DNA of 64,000 nucleotides, from assembly GCF_022227845.1 (NCBI RefSeq), contig NZ_JAJNQN010000002.1, positions 248,001 through 312,000 of the forward strand. Direction: 5' to 3'. The notes below the pieces were generated by a model. It ran no database searches and had not been told where the DNA came from. It saw only the letters and a list, made by a program, of their open reading frames with translations. A program made the translations under genes and the position numbers. This document shows positions 1,501-2,116 of this stretch, piece after piece (position 1 is the first letter of the stretch; every line of letters begins with the position of its first letter). This stretch comes from Ectothiorhodospira lacustris. Lineage in GTDB: Bacteria > Pseudomonadota > Gammaproteobacteria > Ectothiorhodospirales > Ectothiorhodospiraceae.

Positions 1501-1523
1501 AGACCTTCTTAGTAGAAGGGTCT
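1501..1523 (-). other. Hairpin overlapping the antenna beta stop codon
   Basis: AGACCTTCT pairs with AGAAGGGTCT with one bulged base. The stem includes the last codons and stop of the beta gene. It is the first of three stacked hairpins at the 3' end of the antenna transcript. Confidence 0.5.
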
Positions 1524-1649
1524 CCACATGAACACCAGGAAGTGAGCGGCGGCAGCCAGAACCATGAACACCGTGAAGGTGGTCTTGAACTGCTCGTGGA
1601 ATTCCTTGGCTTGTTCTTCGGTCAGACCGGAGATGCTGTTGTCATTCAT
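1509..1649 (-). CDS. Light-harvesting antenna beta polypeptide
   Basis: A 46-residue single-span membrane protein that binds bacteriochlorophyll in the LH1/LH2 ring. It shows the beta signature: GLTEEQAKEFHEQF at the N-terminus with His18 (the -18 position), a hydrophobic span, the pigment-ligating His36 in AAAAHF, and the C-terminal WRPFY. In LH1 beta chains the end is usually WRPW; here the Trp at +9 from His36 is Phe. The ATG follows AGAGGA seven bases upstream. The gene starts 14 bases after the alpha gene stop and is co-transcribed with it. The alpha-then-beta order is the reverse of usual puf and puc operons. Whether this is an LH1 or LH2 type chain cannot be settled from sequence alone. 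Confidence 0.93.
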   Translation of the reverse strand: MNDNSISGLTEEQAKEFHEQFKTTFTVFMVLAAAAHFLVFMWRPFY

Positions 1650-1663
1650 GATCTAGTCCTCTC

Positions 1664-1864
1664 TTACTCGGAAGCTTCGACGGCGCTGGCGTCAAAGGTC
1701 AGCGGGTTGTAGCTGTCGTTGGCGTACACGAAGGCGTGGACAGCCAGGGCAACGACCAGAACAGCCATCAGAATGGGCATCAGCCAGGTGCCGGGATTGA
1801 CCACCAGCCACAGCTTCCAGTCGTCTTTGGGGTTGCTGGGCTTGCTTGCTCTGTATTCGCTCAT
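1664..1864 (-). CDS. Light-harvesting antenna alpha polypeptide
   Basis: A 66-residue single-span membrane protein that pairs with the beta chain to bind bacteriochlorophyll and carotenoid. It has the alpha signature DDWKLWLVVNP before the span and the pigment-ligating His43 in ALAVHAF; the VVNP stretch is more LH2-like than LH1-like. The usual hydrogen-bond donors after the histidine are altered: +11 is Pro, +13 Thr and +14 Phe rather than Trp or Tyr. The ATG has GAGGG eight bases upstream. It is the first gene of a two-gene operon under a promoter with PpsR-type boxes. No reaction-centre genes are adjacent, so this is an accessory antenna locus. Confidence 0.93.
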   Translation of the reverse strand: MSEYRASKPSNPKDDWKLWLVVNPGTWLMPILMAVLVVALAVHAFVYANDSYNPLTFDASAVEASE

Positions 1865-2072: not shown

Positions 2073-2116
2073 TGTAAGTCTAGGCTGACGCGGCGGGATG
2101 TCAAGGTTTCGATACA
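2073..2116. promoter_or_regulatory. Tandem PpsR/CrtJ-type operator boxes
   Basis: Box 1 is TGT-N12-ACA at 2099-2116 and box 2 is TGT-N12-ACG at 2073-2090, with exactly 8 bases between them. PpsR/CrtJ, the aerobic repressor of photosynthesis genes, is known to bind two TGT-N12-ACA palindromes spaced about 8 bp apart. Box 1 covers the -35 and box 2 the -10 of the antenna promoter, an arrangement that would block RNA polymerase when oxygen is present. Confidence 0.7.
2077..2104 (-). promoter_or_regulatory. Sigma70-type promoter of the antenna operon
   Basis: On the minus strand TTGACA (2099-2104) and TAGACT (2077-2082) are separated by 16 bases. Transcription would start near 2070, giving a leader of about 205 bases before the alpha gene. 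Both elements sit inside the PpsR-type boxes. Confidence 0.6.

Follow-up and report, generated by a model that had tools for sequence, protein, structure and literature searches.

The window, a stretch of 64,000 nucleotides from Ectothiorhodospira lacustris, carries on its minus strand an antenna operon composed of an alpha gene and a beta gene, both matched by the Pfam LHC family. Upstream of the alpha gene lie a promoter overlaid by two boxes of the PpsR/CrtJ type and, farther away, an FNR-type box (Table 1). Twelve LHC matches are found in the genome as a whole. Contig C11 holds two LHC beta-alpha pairs, of which one lies downstream of bchC. Four further pairs are located on C12 (the pair in the window), on C49, and, twice, on C9. 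Because these four pairs stand apart from the C11 cluster with bchC, we term them LH2-type, a tentative label based on their position. The two pairs on C11 (L025 13327-13641 and L027 11416-11740) have equal scores, lie 37 kb apart, and are apparently an LH1 duplication.

Just 3' of the beta gene, positions 1340-1530 of the minus strand are predicted to fold into a very stable multi-hairpin RNA structure (-87.7 kcal/mol, z -6.9), which could possibly protect the mRNA or act as a terminator between the convergent genes. The convergent partner, at 1-1281 of the plus strand and L021 14169-16281, consists of a gene for a B12-binding protein with an overlapping GGDEF gene. Next to an LH2 operon, this pair was seen in the present window and at the orthologous G003 locus, and nowhere else. 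Its B12-binding protein distantly resembles the AerR/PpaA-like protein (27% identity). A search of the operon DNA against plasmid records yields no match. The label pucC at L029 7868-9310, where an NCBIfam match is absent, was given by eye.

Table 1. Antenna genes and putative regulatory elements in the window (positions count from the first nucleotide of the window).
Feature	Position	Strand	Remarks
FNR-type box TTGACCCGGGTCAA	2154..2167	-	palindrome; centre at -91.5 from the predicted start
Upstream PpsR/CrtJ-type box, TGT-N12-ACA	2099..2116	-	6/6 core bases; outer TGT 66/92/82% conserved (weighted) in 38 promoters
-35 hexamer TTGACA	2099..2104	-	invariant across 38 boxed promoters
Downstream PpsR/CrtJ-type box, cGT-N12-ACA	2073..2090	-	5/6 core bases; TGTCA and ACA ends 79-100% conserved (weighted)
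-10 hexamer TAGACT	2077..2082	-	16-base spacer; invariant across 38 boxed promoters
Predicted transcription start	2069	-	from the bchC coordinates in the available excerpts of PMC5362033, overlaid on the boxes
Antenna alpha gene	1664..1864	-	Pfam LHC, 48.5 bits
Antenna beta gene	1509..1649	-	Pfam LHC, 42.1 bits

A direct read of the plus strand gives TGTAAGTCTAGGCTGACG at 2073-2090 and TGTCAAGGTTTCGATACA at 2099-2116, separated by a gap of 8 bases (2091-2098). From box to box, the coding (minus) strand reads TGTATCGAAACCTTGACA-TCCCGCCG-CGTCAGCCTAGACTTACA, in which TGTATCGAAACCTTGACA corresponds to 2116-2099 and CGTCAGCCTAGACTTACA to 2090-2073. The ACA half of the upstream box is part of the -35 hexamer, and the downstream box encloses the -10. 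A mechanical promoter scan returns the same TTGACA/TAGACT pair with a score of 10/12, and in a simple scan of the minus strand between 1260 and 2300 TTGACA-N16-TAGACT is the sole promoter-like pair. The sequence-only reading that preceded this analysis had placed two PpsR-type boxes with 8-bp spacing over TTGACA-N16-TAGACT; its coordinates, letters, and overlap are all confirmed, and the start predicted here falls close to the position 2070 that it proposed. The FNR-type box was not mentioned there.

The single TGT-N12-ACA motif is not enriched in the window (5 occurrences vs 8.0 expected), and its 355 occurrences in the whole genome (3.28 Mb) are at chance level when compared with the 363 of a reversed control. 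The twin motif with up to two mismatches is likewise at chance across the genome, with 25 places vs 26 in the control. Since both are at chance, the bare motif and the two-mismatch pair were rejected as evidence. With no more than one mismatch the twin motif occurs at 8 places in the genome, about 1.6 being expected by chance according to a rough estimate from the single-motif rate. Six of these places fall on five photosynthesis promoters, and the other two lie inside unrelated coding frames. Paired sites are shared in this way by all four LH2 promoters of the genome and by bchC (TIGR01202, 451 bits); weaker sites with two mismatches occur near crtI- and crtE-like genes.

Matches to the alpha protein are present in 11 of the 144 genomes searched (the E. 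lacustris genome counted), ten of which belong to one genus and the eleventh, G013, to another genus of the same family. Of 44 upstream regions examined, one from G013:C4 was dropped because it lies within a tandem array, leaving 43 LH2 leader promoters from the eleven genomes. We call a promoter boxed if it scores at least 21 of 27 against TGT-N9-TTGACA-N8-TGTCAACGTAGACTTACA, a consensus derived from these same promoters. By this measure 38 of the 43 are boxed, with scores of 21-27, and the other five score 13-15. The boxed promoters share descent; their effective number is about 15 sequences.

The spacing was examined using the published 12 bases only, at gaps of 0-16 and within the 450 bp that precede the alpha start, a reach that leaves the first promoter of G013 (479 bp) outside. 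A gap of 8 yields at least 10 of 12 matches in 37 of the 43 promoters and at least 11 of 12 in 33, where shuffles give 0.9 and 0.0, respectively. A gap of 6 comes second, with 10 and 0 promoters at the same two thresholds, and every gap from 0 to 16 except 8 stays at or below 10 of 43 at the lower one. Within the 38 boxed promoters the best conserved positions are both hexamers together with the box ends TGT, TGTCA, and ACA; the 8-bp gap, its first base excepted, is poorly conserved.

A profile built from 33 promoters of relatives, with E. lacustris and G013 excluded, was run on 40 genomes. In the E. lacustris genome this out-of-sample profile yields exactly five matches at E <= 1. Four are the LH2 promoters, with values between 1.7e-12 and 2.6e-9, and the fifth, a weak one, is bchC (0.41). 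The match in G013 has an E-value of 4.7e-6, and the best match beyond the genus and G013 in any of the 40 genomes reaches 0.005. Under stricter filters, a survey of 369 genomes across the class finds profile matches at 1e-3 only in G000 and G001.

The sequence-only reading depended on the presence of ppsR, and the genome does encode it, with 527 bits against TIGR02040 (cut-off 275) and with PAS and HTH_8 domains. The HTH is conserved and closely resembles its counterpart in alphaproteobacterial PpsR; all 11 aligned sequences share its cysteine, Cys436. A gene for a B12-binding AerR/PpaA-like protein directly precedes ppsR. According to the available excerpts of PMC8877833, the genus typically has a ChlG-ppsR-ppaA-bchFNB cluster, and Ectothiorhodosinus mongolicus is without ppsR and ppaA. 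We detect ppsR in nine of the ten genomes of the genus, and all nine possess boxed LH2 promoters. In the tenth, G005, ppsR is not detected and the single LH2 promoter has no boxes. In G013 ppsR is not detected either, yet an 11/12 pair stands before the first LH2-type gene, ahead of a tandem LH2-type array (G013:C4, L050).

FNR-type boxes, counted at 7 or more of 8 core bases within 75 bp, occur in 27 of the 38 boxed promoters, and their centres in these 27 are confined to -80.5 to -82.5 and -91.5/-92.5. The boxed promoters hold 28 matches in total, one of them at another position, vs 1.2 expected from shuffles. Class I activation by FNR-family proteins needs positions one helical turn apart, and the two positions seen here, being one turn apart, fit that need. 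The consensus of these boxes has C/T and C/G at positions where the textbook FNR box has T and A. Eleven boxed promoters, among them the C9 alpha-beta promoter, have no FNR-type box and keep the twin boxes. Every one of the nine ppsR-bearing genomes has at least one promoter of this kind as well as boxed promoters with the FNR-type box. The E. lacustris genome encodes six Crp-type HTH genes and two proteins that, at 309 and 308 bits, score above the cut-off for Fnr. A strict TTGAYC-N2-GVTCAA pattern occurs at 8 places in this genome, three of them LH2 promoters, and at 0 in the reversed control. The FNR-type motif is also found before a hemerythrin-like operon (L130 2046-2059) and before an nnrS gene (L132 1995-2008). 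A nitric-oxide-type regulator is therefore also possible, and the sequences hint at a nitric-oxide or anaerobic regulon common to LH2, nnrS, and the hemerythrin-like operon. In three genomes a further FNR-type match lies 41 bp ahead of the bchC boxes. It was set aside because it falls partly within the last bases of the preceding reading frame, where coding conservation may explain it.

Set beside published systems, the promoter in the window adds a new case to an already known PpsR/CrtJ promoter design. In Rhodobacter capsulatus bchC, as given in the excerpts of PMC5362033, two TGT-N12-ACA palindromes footprinted with CrtJ (-4 to -21 and -30 to -47) lie over the -10 and -35, 8 bp apart by these coordinates. 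Unlike bchC, the promoter described here serves an LH2-type operon in a gammaproteobacterium, has cGT in its lower box and an FNR-type box at -91.5, and its sites are predicted from sequence. Adjacent PpsR pairs are likewise described in the available text of PMC4452267 for the antenna and carotenoid promoters pucB and crtI of Rubrivivax gelatinosus. That of crtI shares the gap of 8 and a second box cGT-N12-ACA with the window, whereas the antenna promoter pucB has a 9-bp gap, and 9-bp pairs bind PpsR redox-dependently. The same text records PpsR-bound promoters with single-base departures from the motif. Congregibacter litoralis is also a gammaproteobacterium with predicted tandem PpsR sites, 7 or 8 nt apart; it differs in being an aerobic phototroph whose sites, in the portion of PMC2654016 consulted, are predicted only in the photosynthesis gene cluster. 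Two motifs over the -35 and -10 are described for Dinoroseobacter bchF (excerpts of PMC10890935). Finally, the FnrL and PpsR network of Rhodobacter sphaeroides, in the part of PMC4263372 available, similarly places PpsR and an FNR-family activator on photosynthesis genes; here, in contrast, the distance between the FNR-type box and the PpsR pair takes either of two phased values, and LH2 paralogues with and without the box coexist. For PpsR sites on Ectothiorhodospira antenna promoters, we found no study in the open-licence literature. With the present case, the range of the bchC-type PpsR operator widens to include antenna genes of the LH2 type in a genus of purple sulfur bacteria.

Because the layout matches that of the published CrtJ-bchC promoter, occlusion of the -35 and -10 by PpsR is the best explanation of the twin boxes. 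Judged from sequence and comparison, we assign a probability of roughly 0.85 to the reading that the promoter drives an alpha-beta operon of the LH2 type and has paired PpsR/CrtJ operators over its -35 and -10, at which PpsR would repress by occlusion. PpsR bound to both operators would block RNA polymerase and turn antenna synthesis off. The signal would most likely be oxygen or redox, and the B12-binding AerR/PpaA-like protein whose gene adjoins ppsR would modulate it. Upon release or remodelling of PpsR, a strong sigma-70 promoter would fire from about position 2069, and an FNR-family activator at -91.5 would probably add anaerobic activation. The sequence-only reading had judged oxygen/light repression of the operon through PpsR likely. 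Its PpsR operator is well supported by the presence of ppsR, by conservation among paralogues and species, and by the bchC layout. Its oxygen/light part, which we still consider likely, is weaker than PpsR itself because the 8-bp pairs of Rubrivivax bind PpsR redox-independently (excerpts of PMC4452267).

Alternatively, the boxes may not be operators at all, and instead be by-products of a strong, conserved, ordinary sigma-70 promoter combined with the common descent of LH2 paralogues. TTGACA itself provides one ACA half, across the genome the single motif does not exceed chance, and the LH2 paralogues are closely related; G013, moreover, retains the block with ppsR not detected. Relatedness by descent, with its approximately 15 effective sequences, and the 11/12 pair of G013 also count against the PpsR explanation, as does the lack of the pair in four LH2 promoters of ppsR-bearing genomes. 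However, box ends outside the hexamers (TGT, TGTCA, ACA) are conserved and the 8-bp gap is not, the same pair sits on the unrelated bchC promoter, and some LH2 promoters without boxes still have TTGACA or TAGACT, all of which makes a by-product origin highly improbable.

Two further alternatives accept regulation and reassign its cause. It is possible, if on balance unlikely, that PpsR binds here in a role other than oxygen repressor, either redox-independently or by also activating together with the AerR/PpaA-like partner, giving light/B12-dependent or constitutive level control. The B12-binding AerR/PpaA-like gene adjoining ppsR fits such a role, as does R. capsulatus AerR, which extends CrtJ binding and relieves repression (excerpts of PMC5362033). 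The Rubrivivax crtI pair, with its 8-bp gap and cGT-N12-ACA, was bound equally by oxidised and reduced PpsR (excerpts of PMC4452267), a result that favours this alternative and counts against the PpsR explanation put forward above. Against it, the bchC promoter of R. capsulatus, also with an 8-bp pair, is aerobically repressed (excerpts of PMC5362033), and Cys436 is invariant. Less probable again is that an FNR-family activator at 2154-2167 exerts the main oxygen control and PpsR is secondary. The presence of TTGACCCGGGTCAA in the window, the two phased positions in 27 of 38 boxed promoters, the 28 matches where 1.2 are expected, the two Fnr proteins over the cut-off, and the same motif before nnrS and the hemerythrin-like operon all speak for this view. 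The eleven boxed promoters without an FNR-type box, with all nine ppsR-bearing genomes represented among them, and the departure of the consensus from the textbook T and A speak against it.

Repression by PpsR and the FNR-type box might together constitute a module of the genus, in which the twin PpsR operator over the core promoter and an FNR-family box near -81 or -92 recur on dispersed LH2 paralogues, alongside a second class of promoters that keep the PpsR pair without the activator box; we offer this tentatively, at slightly less than even odds. If true, each cell would hold LH2 antennas with different built-in responses to oxygen (or nitric oxide) under a common repressor. The 38 boxed promoters are natural variants available for gauging the effects of box quality, of the 8-bp gap, and of the FNR-type box on antenna control, and two genomes offer natural controls, G005 (ppsR and boxes both undetected) and G013 (ppsR undetected, boxes kept).

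The four LH2 promoters of ppsR-bearing genomes from which the twin boxes are absent (L052, L057, L072, and L073) mark, from their sequences, candidate PpsR-independent antennas. At the LH2 operon on C49 (L028 10423-10466; C49:85423-85466), a third box-like element with one mismatch lies upstream of the PpsR pair and keeps its 26-bp period.
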